A DNA stretch of 39,178 nucleotides from a virus. Below are positions 6,917-39,178 of the stretch, in pieces; position 1 is the first letter of the stretch, and every line of letters begins with the position of its first letter. The notes beneath the pieces were generated by a model, which saw only the letters and a list, made by a program, of their open reading frames with translations, was not told where the DNA came from and ran no database searches. Position numbers and translations under genes: made by a program. The stretch spans positions 1 through 39,178 of the IMG/VR virus record IMGVR_UViG_3300023063_000060. One strand, given 5' to 3'.

Positions 6917-7506
6917 CAGAAGGACTCCTCGACGTCGAAGGTGAAGGCGTATTTTTGCCCGATGCCGACCGTCCAACCGGCCTTGGAATCGGTCATCGAT
7001 ACCAGCGCGTAAGGCTCGTTTGCCTCGATCTGGAGCCCGTCGACCGGCGAGACCCGGATATAGGCCTTGAAGCTGATCGTAGCGTTCCCGGCGCCATCGG
7101 CGATGATGTCGGCGGTAAGCATCAGCGGCTGGTCGTTGATCGTGACGAACTGCCCGCGCTTGAGTTTCGGGCCCGCCGCGCCCCATCCACCCGTAGCGAG
7201 GGAGTGCCCGAACTGCCCGCCGCCGACGACGTGGGGTGTGATGCCGGGCAACTGCGGCCCCTCGACGATAACGAGCCTGAAGCTGTTCGCGACACCGTCG
7301 AGATCGACGGCGAAGGCGCGCCACGTGAGGGCGGCAGCTTCGCCCAGGATCGGTGGCATCGTGACTTTAGCCGACCAGCGCGGCGCGGCGGCAAGGATAG
7401 TGACCTTGCGCCGACCGGTGAACTCGCTCCGGTTGACCTGGCCCGGCTGATCAAGCGTCCATTCGATGTTCGCGGCGATCGGCGCCGCGGGCATAGGGAT
7501 GAGCAT
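6916..7506 (-). CDS. Distal tail-type protein (gpM position)
   Basis: A 196-aa, beta-rich protein with W-T-L-D-Q-P-G-Q-V-N-R-S-E-F-T-G near the N-terminus and a repeated style of short strands to the end. It directly follows the tape measure gene, with the ATG overlapping the tape measure stop. That is the place of distal tail protein (gpM or Dit type), which forms the ring between tail tube and tip. The family is common in sphingomonad phages as a hypothetical tail protein. Function is inferred from order. Confidence 0.65.
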   Translation of the reverse strand: MLIPMPAAPIAANIEWTLDQPGQVNRSEFTGRRKVTILAAAPRWSAKVTMPPILGEAAALTWRAFAVDLDGVANSFRLVIVEGPQLPGITPHVVGGGQFGHSLATGGWGAAGPKLKRGQFVTINDQPLMLTADIIADGAGNATISFKAYIRVSPVDGLQIEANEPYALVSMTDSKAGWTVGIGQKYAFTFDVEESF

Positions 7507-10250
7507 CAGCCGTAGCCTCCGGGGAGCGATGGACGGTTGATCTTGCGGATGGTGCGCTCCTGGGCGCCGGCCATGATTGGCTCAGCCATCGCACCCACCG
7601 TCCGCACCGTGTTTTGCTGGATCTCAGTGACGAACAGCGGCGATGGCTTCACATTCACGTCAGCGGTGACGTGCACGCGATCTTGGCGACTCATCGCCCC
7701 AAAACTCGGCATCCGCGGTATCTGGGGAGACTGGAGCGACATCGAGGGCGAAACCAGTCCGCCGTCGGCAAATCGCGGGAGACGACGATGGTTGATCGCT
7801 TCGACGAGTTCCGGATGCTCCGCATAGGCCGCTGCGTTGATGACGTATTCGCCATTCGACAGCATCGCGGGGATCTTGTCCTCCCGCGGTCCACCGGCGC
7901 CGTAGATCGGGCCGCCTCCGGCCTTATGCTGAACCGCCTGACCACCATCGGCGAAGTGAATGCCAAAGATGCTCCCGCCACTGATCGCTGAAAGGATCGT
8001 TTTCTCGATCAGGATCTTCGCGAGGTCAGCGACAATGCTCGACGCCATATCCTTAAAGGCCGCGCCAACGCTCTTGGTGCCGCTGATGACGCCTGCAAAG
8101 CCATCCTCCAAGCTTTTGAACGCATCGACGCCGACACCTTGCAGCGCGTCATTCGTATCGCCGACGGCGCTTTTCAGCTGGTCTCGATAGGAGGCGAGGG
8201 GCGTTTCGTTCTTGCGCTCGACCAGCGCGACATTGGCGGGATGCTGGGCGTTGATCTGATCAATCGTGGTATGCGCGTTCTTCGCGGCTTCCGAATTGGG
8301 CTGCGATTTGGCGATGATGTCGTTCTGCGCGGCGATCGCCTGCTTCTCCTGATAGTCCAGCAGTTGTAGCTCGAGCTTCAGGCGCTCTTTCCTAGTCAGC
8401 GCGAGCTGATCATCCAAACTCGCGAGGTTGATCTTGCCCTGCAGGCTGAGATTTTCGCGGGCCAGGGCTTCATCAGCCAAGCGGGCAACCTCCTTCCGTT
8501 TGGCCAGAATCTCCTCGTCGGTTTCGGTTTCGCGATAGGTTGTTTCCAGCTGGGCGCGCTGCGCGCCCGTGCGTTTGCCAGCAGCAACCTGCAGGTCGAG
8601 CTGCACCTCACGGGTTTTCTCAGCATCTCGCAGCGACTGGATATCGATAGCGAGTTGACCCTCAGCGGTATCGGACAGAGCCTCCTTCGCTTTCGCGAGT
8701 GCTGCGTCGGCGGTACGGATTTCGCCTTGAAAGGCCGCGTCCTCGGTGAGCTTCTTGAGGCGCTCAGCTTCAGCTTTCGCTGCGGCAGCGCGTGCCTCGC
8801 TTTCAGATTTCCGCTGTGCGGCGCCCTCCTTGCCAGCCAGGGCGGTCGCCATCTCAGCAGTGGCACCCTGCTTGATGAAGGAAATCTGGCGTTTCTTGTT
8901 GGCGATCTCGTCGTTGTACGCGGCGAGCACAGCACCAGAGGCGCCGACCTTCTGCTTTTCGAGGTCAGCGACTTCGGTCTGAAGGTTTTTGAGGCCATCG
9001 CCATTATCGTTGGTGCTGCCGACACCTCCGCTTCCAAGTCCGTGACCCTCGGAACTATGCGGTGCGGCCAGCGCGGCTTGCGTAAGCCCTATCTGACGCT
9101 GCATCTCCGCAATTGCGGCAGGGATGTCCGTCTGACTTCCCTGTGTATTCCCATCTCGGAGAGTTACAGCTCGACCAGTATAAACGGGTGCAGATTTGTC
9201 GCGGTCGTATCGCTTGCGAGCCTCAAGAAGTTTCTGCTTCCGAAAAGCCGGGTCGGTATTAGAGTCTTCCTCCTGCTGACCGAGTTGCTCGCCGTAAACG
9301 TAGCCCGCGACGCCCCCGACAAGTGCGCCCACATAGCCCAGGCGTGAACCGGCCATGGCGCCAAGGATGCCAAGCGCCCGCTCCGGGTGCCCCGACAGAA
9401 ATTTAGCAACTGCGCCCGACGCAGCCACCATAGAGGTCGCAAGACTCTCGATAGCGGTCGCATTTTGCGCAATGGCGGATGCCATCTGAGCGTCGACGAC
9501 CTGCTTGAGCGCCGCCAGTTTATGATTCACCTGTTCGCTGTGTTCGATCAGCTCTGGACTGAGAACGATACCCAACTGCTCGGCCGCCGACGCAAGGGCG
9601 TTAAATCCGTCGGATCCTGCACTAAGGAGCGGGACGAGGCCGAGCGACTGCTTGCCGAGCAGCGCCATGGTGTCAGCCGCTTTCTGGGCGGGGTTGTCGA
9701 GCTTCTTAATCGCGTCAGCCGTGTCGAGATAAACGCCCTCGACGGACCGTACTTTGCTGTTGGAATCAAGAACCTTGACCCCGAGCCTATCAAACAACTC
9801 GATCAACGACTTGTTACCGTTTCCGGCCTGCCCAACACTCCGCGCGAATTTGCCAAGCCCTTCGTCAGCCGCCGCAGTGGCTACGCCGAACTGGCCAGCG
9901 GCGTAGCGATATTTCTGGAGGAAGTCGGTCGATGTCCCGACCTGCTCAGACACGAACTGGACGTTACCGGCAAACTCGAGCGCCTTCTTTCCAGTCTCAA
10001 TCAAGCTTTCGCCGAGAAGGAGGCCGATAGCGCTCTCGCCGAGACCCTTTAGTCGCTCAAGCGGTGCCTCCAGCTTCTCTACACTCTTGCCGAGCAGGTC
10101 GAAGCGTTCATCGACCTTGCCGAGATGACCCTCGACGCCGGCCTGAAAATCGGCCGTCGCTTTTTCTGCCGCGGAAAGCTCGCTGCGGAGAAGCTCGGTC
10201 GTGGCATTGATTTGGAGCAGGAGCGCGCGGGTTTCGCTGCTATCGGCCAT
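7506..10250 (-). CDS. Tape measure protein
   Basis: A 914-aa, strongly helical protein that sets tail length and is ejected with the DNA. Residues 1-60 are coiled coil. Residues 280-320 hold a hydrophobic stretch with G-A-M-A-G-S and V-G-A-L-V-G-G-V, as in many tape measures. Residues 440-690 are a long charged Ala/Lys/Glu coiled coil. Near the C-terminus lies the recurring phage motif F-A-D-G-G, with P-A-M-L-S-N-G-E-Y-V-I-N in between and a second F-A-D-G-G. At about 0.15 nm per residue, a general rule, the tail would be roughly 135 nm. A 7-kb tail-tip block follows directly. Confidence 0.92.
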   Translation of the reverse strand: MADSSETRALLLQINATTELLRSELSAAEKATADFQAGVEGHLGKVDERFDLLGKSVEKLEAPLERLKGLGESAIGLLLGESLIETGKKALEFAGNVQFVSEQVGTSTDFLQKYRYAAGQFGVATAAADEGLGKFARSVGQAGNGNKSLIELFDRLGVKVLDSNSKVRSVEGVYLDTADAIKKLDNPAQKAADTMALLGKQSLGLVPLLSAGSDGFNALASAAEQLGIVLSPELIEHSEQVNHKLAALKQVVDAQMASAIAQNATAIESLATSMVAASGAVAKFLSGHPERALGILGAMAGSRLGYVGALVGGVAGYVYGEQLGQQEEDSNTDPAFRKQKLLEARKRYDRDKSAPVYTGRAVTLRDGNTQGSQTDIPAAIAEMQRQIGLTQAALAAPHSSEGHGLGSGGVGSTNDNGDGLKNLQTEVADLEKQKVGASGAVLAAYNDEIANKKRQISFIKQGATAEMATALAGKEGAAQRKSESEARAAAAKAEAERLKKLTEDAAFQGEIRTADAALAKAKEALSDTAEGQLAIDIQSLRDAEKTREVQLDLQVAAGKRTGAQRAQLETTYRETETDEEILAKRKEVARLADEALARENLSLQGKINLASLDDQLALTRKERLKLELQLLDYQEKQAIAAQNDIIAKSQPNSEAAKNAHTTIDQINAQHPANVALVERKNETPLASYRDQLKSAVGDTNDALQGVGVDAFKSLEDGFAGVISGTKSVGAAFKDMASSIVADLAKILIEKTILSAISGGSIFGIHFADGGQAVQHKAGGGPIYGAGGPREDKIPAMLSNGEYVINAAAYAEHPELVEAINHRRLPRFADGGLVSPSMSLQSPQIPRMPSFGAMSRQDRVHVTADVNVKPSPLFVTEIQQNTVRTVGAMAEPIMAGAQERTIRKINRPSLPGGYG

Positions 10251-10371: not shown

Positions 10372-10653
10372 TCATTCGAGATCTATACCCGGAAACCACG
10401 CCGTCCCGTCGTAGACCAGTTCTTCGACCTTCCACAGGAGAAGGCTGAGCGCTGCTCGCGATACCGTAACGGTCTTCGCGGAAGGGTCATCGCAACCAGC
10501 TACTTTGAGGTGCCCCATCGCGGAAAAAAGCCATTCATCGGCCGACCCAAGATCGGCCGACAGTTCGTCTAACTCAAGGCGGTCAACATGCAGCGCCTGA
10601 AGACGATCAGATTCCCTGCGGTCATAGTTTTCAAATATGCTGACGACGTTCAC
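10372..10653 (-). CDS. Small acidic protein of unknown function (93 aa)
   Basis: Starts at GTG (10651-10653), whose GTGA overlaps the stop of the Rha/KilAC gene by 4 nt, a typical coupled start. The protein is acidic and helical, with I-F-E-N-Y-D-R-R-E-S-D-R and L-L-L-W-K-V-E-E-L-V-Y-D. No known domain was recognised. Coupling to the antirepressor gene suggests it acts with it or is a phage accessory factor, but nothing in the sequence shows this. A longer upstream reading is possible, but overlaps the antirepressor by 73 nt. Confidence 0.65.
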   Translation of the reverse strand: MNVVSIFENYDRRESDRLQALHVDRLELDELSADLGSADEWLFSAMGHLKVAGCDDPSAKTVTVSRAALSLLLWKVEELVYDGTAWFPGIDLE

Positions 10654-11387
10654 GCCGCTTTGTCCAAAGGAACGCCGAATACCAGCGCCAGTTTCGTCAA
10701 GCCCTTCGGCGTGATATGGCAATATGGCCGACGGGCCGCCATGCCTGTTTTCTGGTCGGTGTAATTCGCCTCTTTATATTCCAGGCGTCCATTTTCAATG
10801 TGTTGCTTGTACGCGACCCAGCTGCCGTTCTGTCGATAAACCCAGCCGTTGGAATTCATCCAAGACGTCATGTCCGCCTGCTTCACACTGAGAAGCTTTG
10901 CGGCTTGGGTAAAGGTCACGCTGCCCGTACTCGCGGAAAGTAAGTCCAGCGCGGCAGCCTTGGGCGCCGCGAGCGTGAGCGCCGCTTCGGCCTTACCTGC
11001 TCTCTCGGCGCTATCAGCAGCTAGGCGTAAAGCTTCCGGGAGTGACGAGGGGATTCGGAACGCTTGGCCGGCGGCTGCCTCCAGATCCTGCCACCGAACA
11101 ACGATCTTGTGGCGGGTTTTCACGTCGTACCCTGAGATCAATGTGATCGTCAGGTCCTTGGGGAGCATGAGCTCGCGGTAGGTCTGACCGTTCTGGGGGT
11201 GTGTCCAGAACTGGACATACCCCTCGACGTTCAGGTCGAGGGCGCCGAGCATGGCCTCCGCATCCCGTAGGACGTGGCGATGATCCTTGCCGGTCAAGTC
11301 GGCGATCTCGCGGGTCGACATAGTCGGCGCCGCATCGGACGAAAGTTGGAGGTTCGAGAAATTCGCGGTATCGTCTGAATCGGGCAT
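10650..11387 (-). CDS. Rha/KilAC-type phage antirepressor
   Basis: A 245-aa protein with two known phage regulator domains. Residues about 22-105 match Rha (pRha): T-G-K-D-H-R-H-V-L-R-D, then W-T-H-P-Q-N-G-Q-T-Y and L-I-S-G-Y-D-V. Residues about 130-240 match the KilAC/ANT DNA-binding domain, ending in I-T-P-K-G-L-T-K-L-A. Proteins of this type inactivate repressors or regulate lytic growth. The ATG at 11387 was chosen; a GTG at 11408 has no ribosome binding site. The gene lies in an accessory cassette between tail genes, not near the repressor. Confidence 0.85.
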   Translation of the reverse strand: MPDSDDTANFSNLQLSSDAAPTMSTREIADLTGKDHRHVLRDAEAMLGALDLNVEGYVQFWTHPQNGQTYRELMLPKDLTITLISGYDVKTRHKIVVRWQDLEAAAGQAFRIPSSLPEALRLAADSAERAGKAEAALTLAAPKAAALDLLSASTGSVTFTQAAKLLSVKQADMTSWMNSNGWVYRQNGSWVAYKQHIENGRLEYKEANYTDQKTGMAARRPYCHITPKGLTKLALVFGVPLDKAA

Positions 11388-11898
11388 GATTGAAGCATGT
11401 CCTTCCACAGTGGTTATGAGCGGTCGTCACAGCCTCCGCTCAACGCTGAGGGAGAGCGACCGGAAGGGTTCTGCTTCCAAGGGCTATTGCCCTTCCGGTC
11501 GTCCACGGCGCTGGAGATCCCTGCACCGAATTTCCATGACCATTGGCCACGGCGGAAGTCGGATCGCAGCATCCATCACTTTTGCATGAAAATGAACCGG
11601 ACCGATCAACGGCGGCGATTCCAGCACGCAGCGGGGACGCTGTCGAAATTCTCTGCGGCCCTACGCCGATCACGGCGGAGCCATCCCTTCGCGGGAAGCA
11701 GATCAGCACTGGAATTGAGATTGACTGCTGGGGAACTGTGATCCCCCACACCCAGCAGCCGAAACCCAATCCTACACAAACTCTTTTCGGCCGCAAGGGC
11801 CTCGATGGGGGCGGAAGCAAGCTTTCGTCGCCGGGGACCATTCTAGGGAACAAAAGGGGCCGGTAAACCACTCCCGAAATTATTCCGGGCTTGGGCAC
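11388..11898. other. 511-bp gene-free region with two strong inverted repeats
   Basis: No convincing gene was found here; readable frames on either strand look like random composition. It contains a 12-bp perfect inverted repeat, CGACCGGAAGGG (11457-11468) and CCCTTCCGGTCG (11490-11501), and, inside it, a competing hairpin AAGGGC-TATT-GCCCTT (11479-11494). A second repeat is CTGCTGGG (11725-11732) with CCCAGCAG (11751-11758). These lie upstream of the minus-strand antirepressor gene. They could be a regulatory leader, a small RNA or an operator region. No U run identifies a normal terminator. Confidence 0.45.
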
Positions 11899-12237
11899 TC
11901 AAAGCCCCTCTTGCCGATCCATCAATTCAAGCTCCCACCAAGCCTTGAACTGCAGATGGGCGCGGTAAAGCTGATCCTCATGGTGCGTCATGCCGACCCG
12001 GAAGACGTCCTTTGCCTTCTGCGTGTGCCCGGCCAATTCGAACTCAGCTTCTGCAATGAAATCCGCCTGCGTCCAGCGCTCGACCGGCTTCGAGCGCCAA
12101 TCCATGGGTGCAGGTGCACTGGCGATCGCGAGGCCGCCAGCCGTAGCAGCCACACTCGCAGCGGCGAAAAAGCCAAGAAATCCACGACGCGAGGGTACTT
12201 GCACGCCCAAAGGCATGATATCGGCAGCGGTAGCCAT
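11899..12237 (-). CDS. Tat-signal-bearing exported protein of unknown function
   Basis: A 112-aa protein with a twin-arginine signal at residues 16-21 (S-R-R-G-F-L) followed by a hydrophobic Ala-rich stretch to about residue 38, which is the classic Tat export arrangement. The mature part is about 70 residues, helical and acidic, ending with W-E-L-E-L-M-D-R-Q-E-G-L. GGAG precedes the ATG at the right distance. No function is recognised. An exported protein in a phage accessory cassette suggests a change in the surface or periplasm of the lysogen, but this is speculation. Confidence 0.65.
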   Translation of the reverse strand: MATAADIMPLGVQVPSRRGFLGFFAAASVAATAGGLAIASAPAPMDWRSKPVERWTQADFIAEAEFELAGHTQKAKDVFRVGMTHHEDQLYRAHLQFKAWWELELMDRQEGL

Positions 12238-12304
12238 GATCGATCTCCGGTCGATTGCGGTTAGGAGCGGCGCAGGGTCTGATCACCCTGCGCCGTTCTG
12301 CATT

Positions 12305-12314
12305 TGTAATTACA
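12305..12314. promoter_or_regulatory. Palindrome TGTAATTACA
   Basis: A perfect 10-bp palindrome in the divergent spacer between the Tat-signal gene and the ribbon-helix-helix gene. Its half-site TGTAA partly resembles the neighbouring 25-bp repeat (TGTAT, TTACA). It is a plausible second operator for the regulator. Evidence is the symmetry and position only. Confidence 0.4.
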
Positions 12315-12335
12315 TGCACTATTGCACTCGGTCAA

Positions 12336-12360
12336 GCATGTATTTACAAAGCATACATGC
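12336..12360. promoter_or_regulatory. Operator-like inverted repeat over the RHH start codon
   Basis: GCATGTAT (12336-12343) and ATACATGC (12353-12360) are perfect 8-bp arms separated by 9 nt. The ATG of the ribbon-helix-helix gene (12357-12359) is inside the right arm. Binding there would block its transcription or translation, so autoregulation is likely. The same spacer is the likely promoter region for the minus-strand Tat-signal gene. Confidence 0.55.
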
Positions 12361-12527
12361 CCGATGAGAAAAGCAAGCCTTTCCAAATGCGAGTTTCGCC
12401 CGAGTGGTTGATGGTGCTCGATGATTGGCGTCGATGCGAAAGCGACATTCCATCACGCGCTGAAGCGATTCGGCGGCTCGTGGAAATCGGTCTCAGAACT
12501 TCGTTTGCGGCGAAGGGAAGCCCTTGA
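12357..12527 (+). CDS. Ribbon-helix-helix (CopG-like) DNA-binding protein
   Basis: A 56-aa protein: F-Q-M-R-V-S-P-E-W at residues 8-16 looks like the beta strand, and W-R-R-C-E-S-D-I-P-S-R-A-E-A-I-R-R-L-V-E-I is the helix-turn-helix portion with the typical S-R-A-E-A-I-R-R-L-V. Such dimers bind operators as autoregulators, often of toxin-antitoxin or plasmid partition genes. It is the only plus-strand gene in the late region apart from the 269-aa protein. It overlaps the end of the minus-strand exported protein gene by 35 nt. Confidence 0.75.
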   Translation: MPDEKSKPFQMRVSPEWLMVLDDWRRCESDIPSRAEAIRRLVEIGLRTSFAAKGSP

Positions 12528-12906
12528 ACGGCGCGACTTCGCAGGAGCCCTTCCAGTCAGAAGATAGTCCGCCGCCGGCCGGGAAGTTATAAGTCGAGTA
12601 TTCGCCGGTCACTCGGCTGACTCTGTGCCCCTTAGTCCCGTATACCGGGTCGTTCTCATAACTTTCTTCGAACTCGATGTTCTGTCCGTCGGCATTAAAA
12701 ATCGGAATCACCGATGGGCAGGTTTCGTAGCAGTATTGCTTTGCCTTTAGGTCCACCCGCAATTCCATAGAAAAAACGTCGTTTTTCTCGAATTTGTCGC
12801 GCGCGGCAAGGTAGTGAATTTTACCGGAGCATACTAAGTCGAACTGGTCTGCGGCGCTGGCCGGCACGGAGATGGAGAGCGCGACGATGGTTCCGAGGTA
12901 TCTCAT
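12493..12906 (-). CDS. Sec-exported protein with four cysteines
   Basis: A 137-aa protein with a Sec signal peptide: M-R-Y-L, hydrophobic 5-14, and probable cleavage after A-S-A near residue 18-19. The mature protein has Cys at 26, 59, 63 and 122, which could make two disulfides in the periplasm, and mostly beta pattern with Y-N-F-P-A-G-G-G. Family is not recognised. It overlaps the end of the RHH gene, tail to tail. It may alter the host envelope, for example to block other phages, though that is not shown. Confidence 0.7.
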   Translation of the reverse strand: MRYLGTIVALSISVPASAADQFDLVCSGKIHYLAARDKFEKNDVFSMELRVDLKAKQYCYETCPSVIPIFNADGQNIEFEESYENDPVYGTKGHRVSRVTGEYSTYNFPAGGGLSSDWKGSCEVAPFKGFPSPQTKF

Positions 12907-12961: not shown

Positions 12962-13485
12962 TCAATCGGGACAATTGACCTTCCGCCACGCTTCAAAGGC
13001 GTGCCAGAACTCTACCGGCGTCGCTTGACCCCACCGGTCGGTTGACCACCCGAGGGTGGCGTCGGCGATGCCAGCGAGTTTTCGGGCTCCGCTGATGCCG
13101 CCAGCGTCTTCGTCTTCGGCGGAGCCTTCATTTCCCCCGAGGGGGTGAGCCCGCCGGTCACCGCGAGGTAAAGCATCAGCTCCAGCCGCTTGAGCAGGAC
13201 GAGTGTATTCTCGGCTGCCAGCAACTCCTGAACTCGAGGTGCCTTAAACAACGGCGCTTCGTCATGGCCGACGGCACGACCCCATGCACGGATGCACTCC
13301 GTGACGATAATCGCGGTCTCCCACGACTTAAGCGAGGCCCGGCCGGCGGCATCGGCGGCCTCTACCTTCGACATGTTGATGCCGCGCTCGAACGCCTCGA
13401 TCGCCTCATGGGAGGGGCGCATCCCGTAAGTTTCGCCGCCAAGCTCGATATCGAACTCGCCCCGGGCCTCGCTAGTCGCCCGCAT
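12962..13485 (-). CDS. Tail assembly chaperone, -1 frameshifted long form (174 aa)
   Basis: The 157-aa frame contains G-GGG-GAA at 13132-13138. After a -1 slip there, the frame stays open for 56 codons to TGA at 12962-12964. The added part ends in L-G-W-S-T-D-R-W and T-P-V-E-F-W-H-A-F-E-A-W-R, the aromatic pattern found in the second half of phage tail assembly chaperones (Phage_TAC_6 / former DUF2376 type). No start codon is found in this frame near the motif. This is the arrangement of lambda G/GT. It would give a short and a long chaperone that coat the tape measure. The slip itself is predicted. Confidence 0.75.
13012..13485 (-). CDS. Tail assembly chaperone, short form (GTA-gp10 / TAC_11 type)
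   Basis: A 157-aa protein starting M-R-A-T-S-E-A-R-G, with L-G-G-E-T-Y-G-M-R-P-S-H-E-A-I-E at 16-31, an E-A-F-E-R-G motif, and a helical segment W-E-T-A-I-I-V-T-E-C-I-R. This matches chaperone proteins of gene transfer agents and related phages. The last 40 residues are Pro/Ser/Gly rich and end in K-R-R-R. The ATG at 13485 shares a base with the TAA of the tail tube gene. The gene sits between tail tube and tape measure, with the accessory cassette following. Confidence 0.85.
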   Translation of the reverse strand: MRATSEARGEFDIELGGETYGMRPSHEAIEAFERGINMSKVEAADAAGRASLKSWETAIIVTECIRAWGRAVGHDEAPLFKAPRVQELLAAENTLVLLKRLELMLYLAVTGGLTPSGEMKAPPKTKTLAASAEPENSLASPTPPSGGQPTGGVKRRR

Positions 13486-13907
13486 TAGATCAGATCCACG
13501 GTCGGCGCAGCGGCGGCGTTGAGAGTGACGGACGTGCCGACCACACCCTTCTGCGCCGCATCGGTGTTGCCGAAATCGGTGTACATGTCGCACGCGAACA
13601 GCGTCGCGGCGACGGGGTCGGTAACGGTGATGTCGCGAACCTCGTAGTTCGTGATCACGCTGGTCGAATCCGCCAGCTTCATGGCCGTATAAGCCGCATC
13701 GGGAAGGTTGGGCTGGATCGCCTGCGTGATTGTCAGCGTCTTCTGCCCTGGAGCGGAGGTGCCATAGCGACCCGTGTTTTTGTCCGAGGTGTCGATCGAG
13801 CTACCGCTGCGGTTGATCGTCAGGTTGCCCTGGCCGAGCGGCTGCACGTAGGTGGCATCCCCCGTCTTGATAAACAGGCGCATGTTGTCGCCGAGCATCT
13901 TTGCCAT
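13485..13907 (-). CDS. Major tail tube protein
   Basis: A 140-aa beta-rich protein: M-R-L-F-I-K-T-G at 9-16, T-I-N-R-S-G-S-S-I-D-T-S-D-K near 30, T-L-T-I-T-Q-A-I-Q-P and V-T-D-P-V-A-A-T-L-F. This is the standard pattern of phage major tail proteins (TP901-1/Phage_tail_2 type), which stack as hexamer rings to form the tube. It lies between the tail terminator and the chaperone genes, as in many siphophages. One-base overlap with the chaperone start. Confidence 0.9.
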   Translation of the reverse strand: MAKMLGDNMRLFIKTGDATYVQPLGQGNLTINRSGSSIDTSDKNTGRYGTSAPGQKTLTITQAIQPNLPDAAYTAMKLADSTSVITNYEVRDITVTDPVAATLFACDMYTDFGNTDAAQKGVVGTSVTLNAAAAPTVDLI

Positions 13908-13943: not shown

Positions 13944-14351
13944 TCAACTCGCCGGCTGAGCGATGATGAAAAATATTTGGGTGCCGACATAGGTCGCGCC
14001 GTCTTCGAGTAGCGGCGCGCTGGCGCTCGTCAGCTCCGGCCGAGAAAATATGGCCCGGTCGTCAGCGATCAGCGCGCCGTCGACCAAGCGAGCGCGCACC
14101 ATCTCCTGCATCACCTTCACAACGATCTTCGTTGTCGACTGCATGCAAATATGAACCGCAAAGTCGTGCTGCTCGATCTGCTCGCCTTTAGCGCCGAGGG
14201 GTGTCACTTGATCCTCGCCGAGGAGCGTAAACGGATAGGTAGCCTGTCCATCATTGTTGACGGGGACCTCGCTGACCACCGGAGGGAGGCCAACAACACT
14301 GCTGAGCGCTTGAAAGATCGCCTTCTGTGTCGCGCCCGTCAAATCAGTCAT
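13944..14351 (-). CDS. Tail terminator / completion protein (DUF3168 type)
   Basis: A 135-aa protein beginning M-T-D-L-T-G-A-T-Q-K-A-I-F and containing L-P-P-V-V-S-E-V-P-V-N and Y-P-F-T-L-L-G-E, typical of DUF3168, and a strand with H-D-F-A-V-H-I-C-M-Q. It ends the tail tube and joins it to the neck. The ATG at 14351 overlaps the HK97-gp10-like stop by 8 nt and has GGAG in front; an ATG at 14363 is a possible longer start. It ends shortly before the tube gene. Confidence 0.85.
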   Translation of the reverse strand: MTDLTGATQKAIFQALSSVVGLPPVVSEVPVNNDGQATYPFTLLGEDQVTPLGAKGEQIEQHDFAVHICMQSTTKIVVKVMQEMVRARLVDGALIADDRAIFSRPELTSASAPLLEDGATYVGTQIFFIIAQPAS

Positions 14352-14823
14352 CACCCGCTCCATTCGCTGCGTCGGTGAGTATGCTGGTCAGCAGGGTGCG
14401 GTAGGCCGGAAGGGTCTCGATCCGGAACTGCGCTTTGGTCTGCCGGACGATATAGAGCGGCCGGAGAGCACGAATATGCATCGCGTGGCCGGCGCGCGGC
14501 CCGCGCTTGATCCGAACGTCCTTCGACCCTCGACCCACGTCGAGGATATGGGCGTAGAAGACGAAATCGCGCCTGGTGAGCTGGCCAACCTTCAGGTTGA
14601 GGGACTTCGGCGTCACCTTCCAAGAAATCGAGTTGCGCGCCGCGCCGGGTGTCCGGTCAGGCCTTGGTGTCGCGAGAACGGGGACCAGCGACCGCATCGT
14701 GTTCGCGGCCGGCGGCCCGGCGGTGTAGAGCAGAGCAATAACCCGCTTATTCGCGCTGTCGGGCAACCGCTTCAGCAACCGCTTGAAGCTGGCGACACCC
14801 TTAACGCTGGATCGCCGTCTCAT
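14344..14823 (-). CDS. HK97 gp10-like head-tail protein
   Basis: A 159-aa basic protein with F-K-R-L-L-K-R-L-P-D-S-A-N-K-R-V near residue 12 and a later R-D-F-V-F-Y-A-H-I-L-D-V-G-R-G-S, which are the marks of the HK97-gp10 family. These proteins take part in neck or tail joining. It overlaps the joining protein stop and the tail terminator start. The 14344 stop is inside the next gene's beginning. Confidence 0.85.
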   Translation of the reverse strand: MRRRSSVKGVASFKRLLKRLPDSANKRVIALLYTAGPPAANTMRSLVPVLATPRPDRTPGAARNSISWKVTPKSLNLKVGQLTRRDFVFYAHILDVGRGSKDVRIKRGPRAGHAMHIRALRPLYIVRQTKAQFRIETLPAYRTLLTSILTDAANGAGDD

Positions 14824-15149: not shown

Positions 15150-15430
15150 GCCAGCGCCGGGTCGCGATAGCGAAATAGGATCCTGATAACAGCATCGCTC
15201 AGCGGATCCGCCTCGTCGTCGTTGAACAAGGAGCGCAGCACCAAGATTGTCGCCGCCTTGATCAGTGCCGGTGCTGTGGAGTCCGTCCAATCAGCAGTTG
15301 GTCGCTTGATGTAATCCAGCACAATTTCAGAGGCGGCCTCCACCTTCATCTGAATATCGAGGTCCTGCTCGTCGCCGTCGATCCTGAGGTCGGCTTTTGC
15401 CTGCAGAAGTGAGATGAAGGCGACCATCAA
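15146..15430 (-). CDS. Head-tail connector (HK97 gp6-like adaptor)
   Basis: A 94-aa, mostly helical protein: L-L-Q-A-K-A-D-L-R-I-D-G-D-E-Q-D-L-D-I-Q, A-A-S-E-I-V-L-D-Y-I-K-R, then A-T-I-L-V-L-R-S-L-F-N. This is the gp6-like adaptor that binds under the portal ring. The ATG at 15430 overlaps the preceding stop by 4 nt (ATGA). The Y-I-K-R segment and the acidic middle are characteristic of the family. Confidence 0.85.
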   Translation of the reverse strand: MMVAFISLLQAKADLRIDGDEQDLDIQMKVEAASEIVLDYIKRPTADWTDSTAPALIKAATILVLRSLFNDDEADPLSDAVIRILFRYRDPALA

Positions 15431-16404
15431 GCCTTGTCCTTCCCATCACGACCACGTTTGACGGCCAATCGCCAACCGCTATCCGGTCCATCTGGCTTGG
15501 TTTCGGTCGAGCGCTGCGCAATCCAGTAACTGCCGGCCCAGGTGACACCGTCGCCAGCCTGATAGGTCGCACTGTCCTTGTAGACGCCGCGATCGATTAC
15601 GACGGGCACGTCGAAGGAAAACTCCTTGGTCCGTTCGCCCTGAGTGAAGCGCAAAACAAAGCTGCGCTCCCCATTCTGCTCGACCGAGAGATCGTCGAAT
15701 CCAAATCCGTTAACGCCGTCCACGGGCGGCGGAAGCGCCGCGACCTTATCGTCGATCGCGCGCAAGATGACGGGCATATCAGCATCATTGCCGACCACAC
15801 CGCCGAGATTCCGGGTCGTGCCGTCGGTCAGCGTAACGATGAGCGCGCCGTGGCGGTCTATGAGCGCACCGGCCAGGCCGACGCCGTCTTTCGCCACGGG
15901 GAGGGACCGGATGGCGCGCTCGACTGCCGCATTGATCGTTGGGGTTACGTCTTCAACGCTGACGCTTACGCCGTCACGCGGGACAGGCAGATCACCTACA
16001 GCGCGCGCGACAGCAGCCTTGATCTCCACAGGGTCCGCATCGCGACCGTCACGCGGCACGGGCAGGTCGGAAACAGCTTCCGCCACCGCATGATCTACGA
16101 GCCGACGAACTTCATCGATTGTTACGCTTTTGCCGTCCTGCGGCACAGGGATCTGGGCGATCGCAGACTCTACCGCAGCGCTGATATCGAGGGCAAGCTG
16201 ATCACGATCAACATCGACGCCGTCGCGGGCGGGAGGCAGCTTTGCTATTGCCGCTGCAACCGCGCGCTCGACGAGAGCAGGGTCGACCTGGGTAGGACGA
16301 GCCTCGAGTGCGGCGATACGCTCGATCAACGGCGCCGTCGCCCGCGCGACGTGATCGCGCACAATGAGCGCAGTCGCTTCGGCTAGAGCCTTCGTGTCAA
16401 GCAT
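15427..16404 (-). CDS. Repeat-containing fibre-like protein with carbohydrate-binding-like end
   Basis: A 325-aa protein. After a helical start it has five copies of A-x-x-x-L-P-x-x-x-D-G. Their D-G pairs are at 61-62, 90-91, 119-120, 144-145 and 173-174, giving spacings of 29, 29, 25 and 29 residues; a related P-P-P-V-D-G follows. The last about 55 residues, with Y-Q-A-G-D-G-V-T-W-A-G-S-Y-W-I and D-S-G-W-R, resemble a CBM5/12-type chitin or cellulose binding module. A trimeric fibre on the capsid or neck is the likeliest reading. It sits between portal and connector, which is an unusual place. Confidence 0.65.
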   Translation of the reverse strand: MLDTKALAEATALIVRDHVARATAPLIERIAALEARPTQVDPALVERAVAAAIAKLPPARDGVDVDRDQLALDISAAVESAIAQIPVPQDGKSVTIDEVRRLVDHAVAEAVSDLPVPRDGRDADPVEIKAAVARAVGDLPVPRDGVSVSVEDVTPTINAAVERAIRSLPVAKDGVGLAGALIDRHGALIVTLTDGTTRNLGGVVGNDADMPVILRAIDDKVAALPPPVDGVNGFGFDDLSVEQNGERSFVLRFTQGERTKEFSFDVPVVIDRGVYKDSATYQAGDGVTWAGSYWIAQRSTETKPDGPDSGWRLAVKRGRDGKDKA

Positions 16405-17761
16405 TCAGGGCCTCCCGAAGGTCTTTCTCAAACAGTGCCACCACAGCCCGAGCTTGCTGCGCCTGCTCGTCGGCGTTGTCATTCGCCGGAGCCGGATCTG
16501 CCGCCGGCTTAGTGGTCGCGAAAGGATTATCGGTCGCATCCCGCTTGGCGAGCGCTGCAAGGCTGAAGTCCTGCTGCTGGCGATAAACGGCATTGCCGCC
16601 AGTGACGGGCCCTAGCCCAATCTTCGCGCGCGCCTCATCCGGCGTCATGAGATTCTTGCCGGCGTCGAGGACCTCCATCTGCGTCACGCTGTCCATGCGG
16701 AGCAGATTGTCGACGTCGAACTCGGTGCCGAGTGTGTCACCGGTGCCAAGCCCCTCGTCGAGGCAGACCTCAATCGATTCGATCAATACCTGAAGGCATT
16801 GGCTGTAATATTCGATGTTGAGCGCCTGCACGTTCGTGATTGCGACGGGAGCCTGGCCGATGCCGATCTTGTACGGTGGGACGTGGTAGGTCGAGCAAAC
16901 CACCTCCGCGGTCCATTTCAGCTGCTCGATCAGCTGCGCGTCTACGGCTTTGACAGCCATTGCCTCATATTTCAGACCATCGCCGAGCACAGCCACGCGG
17001 CCGACATTCTTACCGCTGAAATTCTCTTCCCAGCTCGACTTCAGACGGCCTGCCGTCTCGTCAGATATAGCTCCGGGAGCGGTGAGGATGCCACCAGGCT
17101 GAGAATTGTTTCCGAAGAACCGAGCTGAGTTGTTCTGGATCGATAGGCCCTGCGTCGCCGCGAGGCCGTTGGCAAAAACGGGCGACAGACCGACGAGCGG
17201 GTGAAAAAAGCAGTTGAACCGGTCGTGGATGATTTCGCTGGCCGGTACGACAACCTCGGTCGGAAGTTCGGATAGATGGTCCGTCTTCAATTCATAGAAG
17301 ACACTTCCATCAGGCGCGACCAACGGCTTTACCCGGCCCGGGTCGAGCACATAGAGCTTCTTCGACACACTGCGGCCGACGCGTTGCTTGAGCACGTAGG
17401 TGTTGCCGGACTGAAGCTTACTGAGCACCCAGGATTCGAAGAACTGGATGCGGTTCTGAAAACCGTTCGGCTTGCGCAGCACCGGCGAATATGCGGGATT
17501 TTTCACCTCGCTCCAGATGCCGTTCGCGTCCTGTGCGACCAGTTTGACGCGAAGCTTGGCGATGTCGGATGCGATAAGGCTCTGGCATGCAAAGACGGCA
17601 TGAAAGCTCAACACACAATCAAGCTTCACTTCGACGTTCTGTTGCCATGCGCCCGTGAACGCTTCTCGGATGATCGGCCACCAACCGCCGCGACCGGACG
17701 GAGGGGATAGTTGCCCCTGAGCCGCTTTTTCGCGGGTGATGGTGAGGCCGAACGCGCGCAT
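16397..17761 (-). CDS. Portal protein (HK97 family)
   Basis: A 454-aa protein that forms the ring through which DNA enters the head. Family marks: W-Q-Q-N-V-E-V-K near residue 40, V-F-A-C-Q-S-L-I-A-S-D-I-A-K at about 55-70, L-S-G-N-T-Y-V-L, and Y-H-V-P-P-Y-K-I-G, where portals have a conserved V-P-P. Length is normal. The ATG at 17761 shares bases with the preceding TGA (TGATG). Its end overlaps the fibre-like gene start by 8 nt. Confidence 0.93.
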   Translation of the reverse strand: MRAFGLTITREKAAQGQLSPPSGRGGWWPIIREAFTGAWQQNVEVKLDCVLSFHAVFACQSLIASDIAKLRVKLVAQDANGIWSEVKNPAYSPVLRKPNGFQNRIQFFESWVLSKLQSGNTYVLKQRVGRSVSKKLYVLDPGRVKPLVAPDGSVFYELKTDHLSELPTEVVVPASEIIHDRFNCFFHPLVGLSPVFANGLAATQGLSIQNNSARFFGNNSQPGGILTAPGAISDETAGRLKSSWEENFSGKNVGRVAVLGDGLKYEAMAVKAVDAQLIEQLKWTAEVVCSTYHVPPYKIGIGQAPVAITNVQALNIEYYSQCLQVLIESIEVCLDEGLGTGDTLGTEFDVDNLLRMDSVTQMEVLDAGKNLMTPDEARAKIGLGPVTGGNAVYRQQQDFSLAALAKRDATDNPFATTKPAADPAPANDNADEQAQQARAVVALFEKDLREALNA

Positions 17762-17991
17762 CAGCCTTCCGCGCGCTTCTCTGCGATCTTCGCGTTGAGG
17801 GTGGCGGCGTCCCATCCGTTGAAGGGCTTTTTGCCCAAGGCCTGCTCGTAGAGATCGCGGAGCGCCTGGATGTCAGTCGTGCCGCCTTCTGCGACTAGGT
17901 TGGCGGTGCTGTAACCCAGCTTTTCGAAAATGCGGGCGTAGCGCGGATCGCGCGAGGTTAGCGCCCGATTATAATAGGCTTGGTGCTTCAT
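17761..17991 (-). CDS. Small head-region protein (76 aa), HeH/SAP-like end
   Basis: Starts M-K-H-Q-A-Y-Y-N-R-A-L and ends with L-G-K-K-P-F-N-G-W-D-A-A-T-L-N-A-K-I, a pattern like the short HeH or SAP-type helix-turn-helix tail seen in many phage proteins. It lies between the capsid and portal genes. It could be a minor head or DNA-contact protein. Its ATG is 55 nt after the capsid stop, with a hairpin between. The function is not established. Confidence 0.7.
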   Translation of the reverse strand: MKHQAYYNRALTSRDPRYARIFEKLGYSTANLVAEGGTTDIQALRDLYEQALGKKPFNGWDAATLNAKIAEKRAEG

Positions 17992-30556: not shown

Positions 30557-30778
30557 CTATGCTGCCTCCTGCTGTGCGGACGGAGTAGGAAGCAGCCAGG
30601 AGCGGATAGGCACGACGCCAGACGTTGCCCGCTCGATCGCGTCAGCCAAATCCAACGTCGGGCGCAACCGGCCATGACGAAGTTTGCTGACCATGGATCG
30701 GTCACGTCCGATCAGCGGAGCGAACTCGCTGTCCGGAATGTTTCGGGCCTTGAGATAGGCGTCTAGCTCGGTGCTCAT
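30557..30778 (-). CDS. Cro-like HTH repressor
   Basis: A 73-aa protein: M-S-T-E-L-D-A-Y-L-K-A-R-N-I-P-D-S-E-F-A-P-L-I-G-R-D-R-S-M-V-S-K-L is a complete XRE-type helix-turn-helix, and the remainder is a short helical end with R-S-W-L-L-P. It is the first gene of the leftward operon, divergent from the CI-like gene with three shared operators between, so it is the Cro of this phage. It should bind the same TGTGCA-type sites. Confidence 0.85.
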   Translation of the reverse strand: MSTELDAYLKARNIPDSEFAPLIGRDRSMVSKLRHGRLRPTLDLADAIERATSGVVPIRSWLLPTPSAQQEAA

Positions 30779-30784
30779 AGATCC

Positions 30785-30813
30785 ATATTGTGCAATAGAT
30801 GCACAAACGTCAA
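30785..30813 (-). promoter_or_regulatory. Leftward early promoter (PR-like) over operator 1
   Basis: Read on the minus strand, TTGACG (30808-30813) and CAATAT (30785-30790) are spaced by 17 nt. The operator 30789-30805 fills the spacer, so repressor binding would block polymerase. The Cro-like gene starts 7 nt after the -10. The -10 is a weak match, the -35 a good one. Confidence 0.6.
30789..30805. promoter_or_regulatory. Repressor operator 1: TGTGCA-ATAGA-TGCACA
   Basis: A perfect dyad of 6-bp arms with a 5-bp spacer (17 bp). The exact same 17 bp recur at 33365-33381. It is placed in the leftward promoter, and centred 33 bp from operator 2. Confidence 0.8.
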
Positions 30814-30821
30814 CAGGAATA

Positions 30822-30838
30822 TGTGCATCCTTTGCGCA
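30822..30838. promoter_or_regulatory. Repressor operator 2: TGTGCA-TCCTT-TGCGCA
   Basis: The same layout as operator 1, with one changed base in the right arm. It lies between the promoters. The dyad centre is 26 bp from that of operator 3. Confidence 0.7.
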
Positions 30839-30847
30839 CGACATTCC

Positions 30848-30864
30848 TGTGCGTCGCGTGCACA
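30848..30864. promoter_or_regulatory. Repressor operator 3: TGTGCG-TCGCG-TGCACA
   Basis: One base of the left arm differs from the consensus. It ends 8 nt before the CI-like gene, so filling this site would switch off repressor synthesis. Confidence 0.7.
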
Positions 30865-30872
30865 CCTTCCCG

Positions 30873-31550
30873 ATGGATTATCAGTGGTTCCGTGACCGAA
30901 AGGCTGAGCTCAAGCTCAAGGATGCGCAAATCGCTGAGGCGGCCGCGAAAGACCGCTCGGTGATTAACAAGGTGATCAACGGCGCGGGTAGTTTTTCGCT
31001 CGACCGTGCCGACCAGCTGGCGGCGCTGTTCAAGGTCACGCGGATCGATATGCTCTTCCGGATTGGTGTGCTTCGAGCTGATGATCTCGAAAGCCTAGAC
31101 CCCACGCGGCGCCAACTGCCTGCCCCGGCTAACGATGACGATGTCGTCGAGATAACGTCGTTAGACCTTTCGCTGTCGATGGGGCCCGGGACATTGATCG
31201 AGGACTTCGTTGAGACGACGCCAATCAAAATGGGTCTGGGGCTGATCCAGGCGATCACCCGCACCCCGTCCGATCGCCTTCGCCTGGTCAAGGGTATCGG
31301 CGACAGCATGGAGCCCACGCTCAGGACCGGCGATACAGTGATGGTGGATATTAACGAGCGAGCGCTAACCCGGATCAGCGGGATTTATTGGATCGATTAT
31401 GCGGGATCGCACGGCATTAAACGGCTCCGGCCAGCCGGGAAGGATCGGGTGCTGATCATCTCCGACAATACCGGTGAAGATAATTTCGAGGTGCCTGCCG
31501 AGGATCTGCGGATCGAGGGCAGGGTCATCTGGTTTGCGAGGGATTTGTGA
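30873..31550 (+). CDS. CI-like repressor with S24 (LexA-type) domain
   Basis: A 225-aa protein. Residues 1-65 are an HTH domain (L-K-L-K-D-A-Q-I-A-E-A-A-A-K-D-R-S-V-I-N-K). Residues about 140-225 are the S24 peptidase-like domain, with Ser145 in G-D-S-M and Lys183 in G-I-K-R, the catalytic pair. No Ala-Gly or Cys-Gly cleavage site is seen in the linker. There is no clear ribosome site before the ATG, and the operator is close, so the message may be leaderless as for lambda cI. It directly precedes the protease gene; stop and next start touch. Confidence 0.88.
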   Translation: MDYQWFRDRKAELKLKDAQIAEAAAKDRSVINKVINGAGSFSLDRADQLAALFKVTRIDMLFRIGVLRADDLESLDPTRRQLPAPANDDDVVEITSLDLSLSMGPGTLIEDFVETTPIKMGLGLIQAITRTPSDRLRLVKGIGDSMEPTLRTGDTVMVDINERALTRISGIYWIDYAGSHGIKRLRPAGKDRVLIISDNTGEDNFEVPAEDLRIEGRVIWFARDL

Positions 31551-32702
31551 ATGCAAGATAACGGCGCATTGTCTCAAGATCGACTTCCTTTGCTTGATGC
31601 AAACCCAGTTGCATCTGCAAGTGCACATGATTCTGCCGTATCTTTCCTTGTTTGGGCAAAGCAAAATCGCCTCTTATCCAAAGGGCCGATTGATGACACG
31701 GTTGAAGAGGACCTGCAATTAGATCTTCAACCGCAGCAGATGTTCGAATCGCAATCTGTGAAAGCCGTCCTGCGTAAGCGCGCGGTCAATCTTGTTGCGT
31801 ATAATGAAGCAGAGAAGAAAGTTATCGTTTTTACTCATGCTAGGCTTACCAACGCCGAGCGTAAAATGATGCCCTTCCAATTTACCGCTGGCGTGAGAGT
31901 AGAATATTCAGTTGGCGGGACCGCTCAAGTGCGTGGAAACGCGCCGCCACCTGATGCTTTTTCGCCATACACGCTTCATGATGGTCGTATTTGTTGTGGA
32001 TCATCAATTCATCCCGTCAATTGCATGGGGGCGGGAACGCTCGGTGCTATCGTTCGTGGGCCGGACGGCAAGCTGTACGGACTGACCAACAATCATGTGT
32101 CGGGGGCGTGCAACCTCGCAGCTCCCGGCCTACCAATCTTATGCCCTGGGCCATTGGATGCGACCGAAGAAAATATTTCACCTTTCACGATCGGGCGCCA
32201 TGCCCGCCTCTTGCCAATTTCCGAAGGTATCCCCGAGAATATTGACGTCGGGAACAATGTGGATGCCGCGATATTTGACCTCGAGTCGGCCGAACAGGTG
32301 TCGTCAATGCAGGGTGACAGCTTCGACACGCCCACAAGTGTCGTAGAGGCTCAAGGCGGATGGCGTGTTGAAAAGGTCGGACGAACGACTGGGTTCACGA
32401 CCGGAAAAATCGTCGGTGTCGTCGCGGCTCCCATGGGCGTTGGCTACAACATCAAGGAATACGGTGTCTCAAAAACGGTATTTTTCAACGACATAATCAT
32501 GGTGGAGGGTGAGAACGGACAACCCTTTTCTAAAGCGGGCGACAGCGGGTCTCTCGTGGTGGCTTACGACGATGCCGGGGTGCGGCATGCCGTAGGTCTG
32601 ATTTTCGCCGGGAACGAAGTGCGTGGCCATTCTTACGTCGTTCCGTTACAGGTTGTGTTGGAAAAGCTAGGTGTCGAGCTGGTATCCGGGCTGAATGTGT
32701 GA
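31551..32702 (+). CDS. Trypsin-like serine protease, lysogenic operon
   Basis: A 383-aa protein. The triad is His182 (L-T-N-N-H-V), Asp238 (N-V-D-A-A-I) and Ser332 (K-A-G-D-S-G-S-L-V). Before the protease domain, residues about 70-118 form a small beta-alpha-beta domain (V-N-L-V-A-Y, V-I-V-F-T-H-A-R, P-F-Q-F-T-A-G-V-R-V-E-Y). No signal peptide, so it is cytoplasmic. The DNA is AT-richer than its neighbours (56 G+C in 120 bases at 31561-31680), suggesting later acquisition. ATG follows the CI stop with no gap. It resembles the Nal1-like/trypsin group of intracellular proteases; substrate unknown. Confidence 0.85.
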   Translation: MQDNGALSQDRLPLLDANPVASASAHDSAVSFLVWAKQNRLLSKGPIDDTVEEDLQLDLQPQQMFESQSVKAVLRKRAVNLVAYNEAEKKVIVFTHARLTNAERKMMPFQFTAGVRVEYSVGGTAQVRGNAPPPDAFSPYTLHDGRICCGSSIHPVNCMGAGTLGAIVRGPDGKLYGLTNNHVSGACNLAAPGLPILCPGPLDATEENISPFTIGRHARLLPISEGIPENIDVGNNVDAAIFDLESAEQVSSMQGDSFDTPTSVVEAQGGWRVEKVGRTTGFTTGKIVGVVAAPMGVGYNIKEYGVSKTVFFNDIIMVEGENGQPFSKAGDSGSLVVAYDDAGVRHAVGLIFAGNEVRGHSYVVPLQVVLEKLGVELVSGLNV

Positions 32703-37917: not shown

Positions 37918-38090
37918 CGCACGCAGCGCGCTTCAAACAGGTCGACCTAACGCGCGCGGTCCGTGGTGCCCAGGCGGCCGGCATGCGAATCGGCCGAATT
38001 GAGATCGACCCCAATGGCAAGATCGTCATCCTGAGCGAGCGCACCGCGCCGGCGCGGGGCCCGAACGAGTGGGACGAGGTGCTGCGTTGA
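37914..38090 (+). CDS. Small protein before the integrase, Xis candidate (58 aa)
   Basis: Starts M-T-H-A-A-R-F-K-Q-V-D-L-T-R-A-V-R-G-A-Q-A-A-G, a basic helix with D-L-T-R-A-V-R-G-A, then a strand pair (R-I-E-I-D-P-N-G-K-I-V-I-L). The stop overlaps the TTG start of the integrase (TTGA). Directly upstream of integrase is the usual place for excisionase. A winged-helix is not obvious, so the role is inferred from place and basic charge. Confidence 0.6.
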   Translation: MTHAARFKQVDLTRAVRGAQAAGMRIGRIEIDPNGKIVILSERTAPARGPNEWDEVLR

Positions 38091-39178
38091 CACGTCGTCG
38101 CCGTCGCCTCCTTCCTAAATGGGTGACCGAGTTCAAGGACCGGCACGGCAAATACCATCTGCGGTTCCGGCGGCAGGGCTTCGAGTCGCGCTATATCCAT
38201 GCTGAGTTCGGCACCGAAGAGTTTCGCATCGAGTACCGGGACTGCCTTGAGAAGCGGGTATCAGTCGCTGTGGACCGGACCGCACCCGGCTCGATCGATG
38301 ACCTGATCGTCCGCTATTACAAAGGGCAGGAGTACACAGGCGGCGCGCTGACCACCCGTAAGAAGAACTACGGCATCCTCGAGGCCTTCCGCGAGACGCA
38401 CGGCAAGAAGTCCGTCGATAGGATCCAGTTCGAGCACATCGACGCGATCATCGCCAAGAAATCCGCGACTCACCCGGCCGCCGCGCGCAACCTCCGTAAG
38501 CAGCTCAAGCGCCTGTTCGCATTTGCCGTGAAGTGTCGGATGCGGAGCGACAACCCGGTTGACCACACCACGCCGGTCAAAGTGCGCAAGGATGCCGGCT
38601 GGAAGGCGTGGAGCGAATCGGACGTCACCAAGTACCAGGCGCACCACGGCCTCGGCTCCATGGCCCGCCTGGCGCTCGAAATCATGCTCTGGACCGGCAA
38701 CCGCCGCGGCGATGCGCTGACCCTCGGGCCCAGGCATATCCAAGGTGATGCGTTCAAGCTCCTGAACGAGAAGACCGGCAAGACGCTGGTGATCCCGATC
38801 GCGCCGGCGCTGGCCAAGGCTATCGCTGCCATGCCTGCGAACGATCACGAGACGCTGATCACCACCAGTTACGGCAAAGCCTTCAGCAAGGATGGCTTTG
38901 GCAACCGGATGCGCAAATGGTGCGACGAGGCCGGTTTGCCTGAGCGGACCGCGCACGGTCTGCGCAAGACGATCTCGGAGCGCATGGCGCTGTCGGGTGC
39001 GGGCAACCAGGGGATCAAGTCGGTCACCGGCCACAGCGCCGATTCGGAGGTGTCCCTGTACACCAAGGGTGTCGACCAAGAGCGCCTCGCGCGAGACACG
39101 ATGGCGGTCCTGGTGGCTTGGGAATTGTCTAACCACAAATGTCTAACCGGGGCGGAAGCGCCAGAAAGCGACGGATAA
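38087..39178 (+). CDS. int: Tyrosine integrase
   Basis: A 363-aa protein from a TTG start (38087) that overlaps the previous stop by 4 nt. The N-terminal part (about 15-70) is an arm-binding domain with H-G-K-Y-H-L-R-F. Residues about 78-165 are the core-binding domain. Catalytic residues are Arg206 (T-G-N-R), His290 and Arg293 (H-G-L-R), His316 (T-G-H-S) and Tyr325 (L-Y-T-K). All are present. The window ends at its TAA, so the attachment site probably lies to the right of the window. Confidence 0.93.
   Translation: MTRRRRRLLPKWVTEFKDRHGKYHLRFRRQGFESRYIHAEFGTEEFRIEYRDCLEKRVSVAVDRTAPGSIDDLIVRYYKGQEYTGGALTTRKKNYGILEAFRETHGKKSVDRIQFEHIDAIIAKKSATHPAAARNLRKQLKRLFAFAVKCRMRSDNPVDHTTPVKVRKDAGWKAWSESDVTKYQAHHGLGSMARLALEIMLWTGNRRGDALTLGPRHIQGDAFKLLNEKTGKTLVIPIAPALAKAIAAMPANDHETLITTSYGKAFSKDGFGNRMRKWCDEAGLPERTAHGLRKTISERMALSGAGNQGIKSVTGHSADSEVSLYTKGVDQERLARDTMAVLVAWELSNHKCLTGAEAPESDG

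Follow-up and report, generated by a model that had tools for sequence, protein, structure and literature searches.

Frameshifting in tail-chaperone genes is textbook knowledge (PMC5009743). Lambda G/GT slips on the heptamer GGGAAAG (PMC7618472), and two tail-chaperone genes measured elsewhere shift at 6-7% (PMC3711429). PRFect reports GGGGGAA at all of the approximately thousand "fivetwo" sites in the SEA-PHAGES data, with a discussion of re-pairing by way of G:U (PMC10885494). The Caulobacter phiCbK-like chaperones have a predicted -1 frameshift on AAAAAAC, with GGGAAAC in Colossus (PMC3556154), and most of the R. capsulatus phages of one study frameshift the tail chaperone, RcZahn being the exception (PMC8601537). 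For the gene transfer agent RcGTA, g10 is assigned to PF11836, and g10 and a small further gene are named tail chaperones 1 and 2; the word "frameshift" is absent from the accessible text of that paper (PMC11409702). Outside tail genes, the heptamer of E. coli dnaX is followed by a stimulatory stem-loop (PMC3711429), and stimulators of this kind are known from several viruses as well as from dnaX (PMC3711429, PMC7618472). In the accessible open-licence PMC literature, we found no description of a frameshift or a stem-loop in the TAC_11/TAC_6 family treated below. Frameshifting of the lambda G/GT kind is known, and a covarying stem-loop in this TAC_11/TAC_6 family is new.

The window is a stretch of 39,178 nucleotides, positions 1 to 39,178 of IMG/VR virus record IMGVR_UViG_3300023063_000060. 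It very probably carries a prophage tail assembly chaperone gene, with relatives in Sphingomonadaceae, whose expression involves a programmed -1 shift of the ribosome (Table 1). A preliminary description made from the letters of the window had proposed such a frameshift at G-GGG-GAA, read in the zero frame as TCG GGG GAA, and that site is present exactly, on the minus strand, where the zero-frame codons are ACC CCC TCG GGG GAA ATG AAG. The 118 residues up to the slip are the N half, and a 39-codon zero-frame tail follows. The long form is predicted to have about 174 residues and a junction that spans TPSGE-NEGSAEDEDAGG, and after the slip the extension reads NEGSAEDEDAGGISGARKLAGIADATLGWSTDRWGQATPVEFWHAFEAWRKVNCPD, an acidic linker and then a TAC_6-like three-helix domain. 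The 56 open codons of the description, with its motifs LGWSTDRW and TPVEFW, are confirmed, as is its remark that a start codon is absent: the complete stop-to-stop ORF of the -1 frame (13243-12962, 93 codons) contains zero ATG, GTG or TTG codons. Because the DNA is GC-rich and many spurious ORFs are listed from it, the open -1 frame alone is weak evidence. What goes beyond chance is the single copy of the heptamer, its recurrence in relatives, its restriction to the junction, and the covarying stem-loop. The slip site is the only copy of GGGGGAA on either strand of the 39,178 bases, while shuffled sequence leads one to expect 5.0 (SD 2.1). As a separate observation, this rarity (1 against 5.0) would fit an avoidance of slippery copies in the rest of the window.

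The likeness to lambda G/GT lies in a gene between tail tube and tape measure, a -1 shift late in the first ORF, and a short second domain. The lambda heptamer GGGAAAG is also used by two of the relatives (L006 and L018), whereas the window has GGGGGAA. Unlike lambda, the halves of the family here fall to Pfam TAC_11 and TAC_6, and a stem-loop follows the heptamer; we know of no stem-loop behind the heptamer of lambda G/GT. With the actinobacteriophage "fivetwo" tail chaperones of PRFect, the window shares GGGGGAA and the -1 direction, a likeness at the level of the site. The phiCbK-like chaperones, compared by slip site, offer a predicted -1 frameshift in an alphaproteobacterial phage, and the GGGAAAC of Colossus is also found in 10 of the lineages here. 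A stem a few nucleotides past the heptamer is common to dnaX and the window, but the heptamer and the gene differ. The RcGTA pair g10/g10.1 (tail chaperones 1 and 2) belongs to the same protein families as the window's relatives, g10.1 presumably being TAC_6. GTA-like loci differ from the window in that the junction heptamer is missing and there are two ORFs, the second with a start that overlaps or adjoins the first.

Table 1. Features of the chaperone locus and its surroundings in the window.
Feature	Positions	Strand	Remarks
Zero-frame ORF (short product, gpG-like)	13012..13485	-	ATG 13485 to stop 13012; 157 aa
Slip heptamer G_GGG_GAA	13132..13138	-	single copy in window
-1 frame extension	12962..13132	-	56 codons 13132-12965 + stop 12964-12962
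5' arm GGCUCCGC of putative stimulatory stem	13119..13126	-	5 nt past heptamer; covariation in relatives
3' arm GCGGAGCC of putative stem	13085..13092	-	26-nt loop separates arms
Major tail tube protein, upstream neighbour	13485..13907	-	PF06199 E = 3.7e-4, just under cut-off; phrog_1407 E = 1.1e-7
Tail completion protein, upstream	13944-14363	-	
Portal, upstream	16397-17815	-	
DUF6950 protein, downstream of chaperone gene		-	
Secreted-looking protein	12493-12906	-	in 2.7-kb insert
Small protein with Tat-like signal	11899-12237	-	in 2.7-kb insert
Antirepressor, Rha + KilAC domains	10650-11408	-	in 2.7-kb insert
Unknown protein	10372-10722	-	in 2.7-kb insert
Tape measure protein, expected chaperone client	7506..10250	-	PF09718 E = 2.9e-5; several tape-measure phrogs
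Integrase-like ORF	38069-39178		read by eye

The chaperone gene sits between the tail tube gene, just upstream, and the tape measure gene, downstream. Additional ORFs of about 2.7 kb in all (10372-12906, minus strand) separate it from the tape measure; they are absent in L002, L004 and L007, where the tape measure comes directly after the chaperone. The integrase-like ORF suggests a temperate phage. Two other ORFs were noticed by eye. One (31551-32702, plus strand) has a GDSGS serine-protease-like motif and lies directly behind a LexA/S24-like repressor ORF (30771-31550), and the other (15427-16404, minus strand), adjoining the portal, contains repeated P-x-x-DG-like units and has the repetitive look of a fibre- or neck-type protein.

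A tblastn search with the fused protein found one phage record with both halves, MT835603 (E = 3e-18), and when 4 fused family proteins were used as queries against the phage collection, only MT835603 and, weakly, MT840053 were found, both of them unannotated records. A plasmid search gave no match. Searches of viral contigs with single proteins also gave no matches, and the relatives were reached with a 2-row and then a 16-row alignment. With the 2-row alignment, four genomes of Sphingomonadaceae and a single viral contig were reached; the profile searches that followed had matches in 15 of 397 genomes of the family, 12 of 385 of the class (G001 being counted in both tallies), and 50 viral contigs. 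Sphingomonas and Novosphingobium are the named hosts. In total, 82 sources spanning isolate genomes, metagenome-assembled genomes (MAGs) and viral contigs were scanned, each half by a profile of its own, repeat places having been removed; the window excerpt L001 and the repeat loci L008-L015, L030-L039 and L051-L053 were dropped before counting. Because the window and 15 of the relatives went into the profiles, their E-values are not independent; the frame relation was taken from the DNA. Both halves are present in 79 of the 82 sources: 75 place the second half in the -1 frame, 2 keep it in the frame of the first half but past a stop, and 2 have it in +1. The remaining three (L003, L044 and L045) have no second half by profile, and L003 stops shortly past its GGGGGAA. 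In the overlap from slip to stop, close relatives (18 non-independent pairs) differ by 11, 23 and 29 changes at -1-frame codon positions 1, 2 and 3, which are 23, 29 and 11 at the zero-frame positions.

Clustering at 70% identity gave 64 clusters, and 57 of these have the -1 arrangement. A junction heptamer of GGG type is found in the zero frame in 49 of the 57 lineages: GGGGGAA in 30, GGGGGAG in 3, and GGGAAAN in 16, the last group dividing into GGGAAAC (10), GGGAAAT (2), GGGAAAG (2) and GGGAAAA (2). Without GGGGGAG the count is 46 of 57. Over the rest of the N halves, by comparison, a single one of 6,212 codon positions has GGGGGAA or GGGAAAN in frame. Upstream glycine codons are GGG in 120 of 631 cases, and therefore the junction is not explained by codon preference. 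The zero-frame residue after the glycine varies between Glu, Asn and Lys with the type of heptamer, which argues that slipperiness is conserved and not the peptide. Conservation of the heptamer and of the open -1 frame in homologues, which the preliminary description had put forward as the check on its proposal, is what the alignments give, and heptamers and frames in the homologues strongly support the frameshift interpretation.

The lineages at the margins of this pattern deserve a description. The GGGGGAG variants (L041, L057 and L092) keep the frame, with a strong stem in L057 and L092 and a weak stem of 5 bp in L041; they are a possible natural test of the choice of Glu codon at the slip site. 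Eight of the 57 lineages have no GGG-type heptamer (L016, L029, L047, L048, L050, L066, L099 and L100), and at the L047 and L066 junctions there is AAAAAAG instead. The L016 and L099 junctions read GGTGAA, which leads to an immediate stop in the -1 frame, and the second ORF of L016 has a later ATG; to judge from these sequences, frameshifting seems to have been lost in both.

Behind the heptamer of the window, there is a candidate stem of 8 bp, GGCUCCGC/GCGGAGCC, with a spacer of 5 nt. Stems were scored by base pairs, with G:U counted as half, at a threshold of at least 7, with starts searched from 3 to 9 nt past the heptamer. A stem is found in 45 of the 49 lineages, starting 3-8 and usually 4-6 nt past the heptamer. 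With 100 dinucleotide shuffles, the mean was 7 lineages and the maximum 13, and when the first 20 nt were exchanged between lineages, a null that retains codon and amino-acid make-up, the mean of 100 trials was 16 and the maximum 24. Placing the 5' arm 10-16 or 17-23 nt downstream gave 8 and 5 lineages. The 3' arm lies on conserved Arg codons, in 2 registers, in 36 of the 49 lineages. With the registers fixed by the protein alignment, 36 of 49 lineages reached the score of 7, where 5,000 swaps gave 7.4 on average and 17 at most. At one position, the compensatory changes are GC 11, TA 3, AT 3, CG 2, and two G:U, for 21 of 21 paired. These nulls contain no model of ancestry; the swap null should be conservative, since swaps between near relatives keep the pairing. 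The 3' arm of the window is in a different register from most relatives, and the window stem is no stabler than its shuffles (-19.8 kcal/mol, z = -0.33; z = -0.32 for a 70-nt stretch), so the support for it is comparative. For an upstream Shine-Dalgarno-like stimulator, nothing conserved was seen by eye in the 24 nt upstream in 8 of the 49 lineages.

The protein families were assigned with Pfam models on 34 of the 49 slip-site cluster representatives, those from the window and the related-locus search. PF11836 (Phage_TAC_11, GTA-gp10) matches 34 of 34 N halves at E ≤ 0.1, the best at 3.8e-20, and PF09550 (Phage_TAC_6) matches 33 of 34 -1 halves at the same threshold, the best at 9.7e-12. In the window itself, the N half matches TAC_11 weakly (E = 0.018, 15.6 bits against a curated cut-off of 27.8), and the -1 half, the sole miss for PF09550 among the 34, matched no Pfam model. 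The earlier identification of a TAC_11-type half joined to a TAC_6-like half therefore stands for the family, while the halves of the window lie below or outside the Pfam models. The AlphaFold2 model of the N half has a strand pair and five helices with pLDDT 91.7, and that of the -1 half has three helices with pLDDT 85.7. Foldseek with the N half found nothing in the PDB at E ≤ 0.001. Against viral models the best score was E = 2.1e-3, several entries were named tail assembly chaperone, and the matches also included an uncharacterised protein of Rhodobacter phage RcapNL (TM by query 0.64) and, at E = 0.15, N15 GT. We regard these matches between models as suggestive only.

Some homologues do have a second half with its own start, an arrangement that the preliminary description had set against its proposal. 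They are a GTA-like clade and a few singletons, and because they also lack the heptamer, we read them as a contrast and not as a refutation. The clade has six rows without junction heptamer (L026, L029, L049, L050, L100 and L126) and a support of 100/100. In L029, L049, L050, L100 and L126, there is a GTG or ATG at, or a few bases from, the stop of the first ORF, and in L026 an ATG lies just past the TAA in the same frame. The surroundings were examined for 1 of the six rows, the L050 locus (L135), which encodes tail proteins of RcGTA-like type (Rcc01698_C, DUF2460 and Phage_phiJL001_Gp84_N) together with TAC_11. In the tree, the own-start clade is one branch among heptamer-bearing rows; because the root is a midpoint root and many forks are weak, it can do no more than suggest that the GTA lineage lost its frameshift. 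A census with PF09550 had matches in 34 of 289 genomes, and of its loci (30 and 2 extra regions, some already seen), 20 have both halves by profile, with a start at the junction in 8, a heptamer-like site in 7, and neither in 5. Since the arrangements in the census are mixed, few of the GTA-like loci bear the own-start reading. To the preliminary description we add the strand, the GGGGGAG variant, the stem-loop with its covariation, the wide spread of the family, and the difference from loci of GTA type.

The main question for the window is whether its second half could likewise be a separate gene, with a start of its own, perhaps at a rare codon, coupled to the zero-frame stop like GTA g10/g10.1. 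The GTA-like clade is a precedent, having starts that overlap or adjoin the zero-frame stop, and so are the heptamer-bearing relatives themselves in part. For the 46 GGG-type lineages remaining when the GGGGGAG ones are left out, starts were scanned from the slip to the sixth residue before the conserved Trp, and 25 have a -1-frame ATG at least 6 codons before that Trp, mostly the Met of RRLMG. In 16 lineages, 19 such ATGs overlap the zero-frame stop, but 17 of these lack, at the usual place, any match of at least 3 nt to the Shine-Dalgarno-like TAAGGAGGTGA, whereas 902 of 1,280 random N-half stretches do match it. In the other 21 of the 46, the window among them, the stretch from slip to TAC_6 core is free of ATG, GTG and TTG. 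In the window, moreover, the TAC_6 core has already begun where the zero-frame stop falls, so a start coupled to this stop cannot yield the whole domain, and a separate gene would leave the conserved heptamer and stem unexplained. On the sequences, some relatives may have another route of initiation, though this is not favoured, and for the window, which lacks any ordinary start codon, we consider a separate gene very improbable.

The position of the junction inside a homopolymer run raises two further doubts. Indel errors are common in such runs, and a base lost from the G run, by sequencing error or by decay, could have split one continuous gene. The identical frame break is nevertheless present at the same place in 75 of the 79 sources, isolates, MAGs and viral contigs alike, and it is shared by heptamers that contain no G5, GGGAAAC for example, which makes this the least credible of the explanations considered. 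The five-G run of the GGGGGAA members might alternatively be a place for transcriptional slippage, with the frame changed in the message and not on the ribosome. G5 is short for RNA polymerase slippage, however, the GGGAAAN members have no long homopolymer, and the covarying stem is conserved at a spacing typical of ribosomal frameshifting. Slippage in transcription is even less probable than a separate gene, if not quite so far-fetched as a sequencing error.

With ribosomal frameshifting as the preferred reading, most ribosomes would continue to the zero-frame stop and make the short TAC_11-type chaperone. A minority would pause at the stem-loop 5 nt downstream and slip one base back on G_GGG_GAA, where tRNA-Gly could re-pair fully and tRNA-Glu would re-pair on GGA by way of G:U in the middle position. 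The slipped ribosomes would then read the 56 codons for the acidic linker and the TAC_6-type domain. If the two forms divide their work as lambda gpG and gpGT do, the short one would coat the tape measure, and the long one, scarcer than the other, would recruit the tail tube protein.

A wider reading, which we put forward tentatively and think somewhat less likely to be right than wrong, is that a mainly alphaproteobacterial prophage superfamily sets the ratio of TAC_11 to TAC_6 by a cassette of heptamer, spacer and covarying stem, and that the split genes of GTAs descend from a frameshifted gene, a second start codon having taken the place of the frameshift during domestication. The findings tie GTA chaperones to the lambda G/GT scheme, and the 49 lineages make a comparative set for following the joint evolution of slip site, spacer and stem in two overlapping frames. 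Where the TAC_6 half is start-less, ordinary gene calling would omit it, and the long chaperone would go unannotated.
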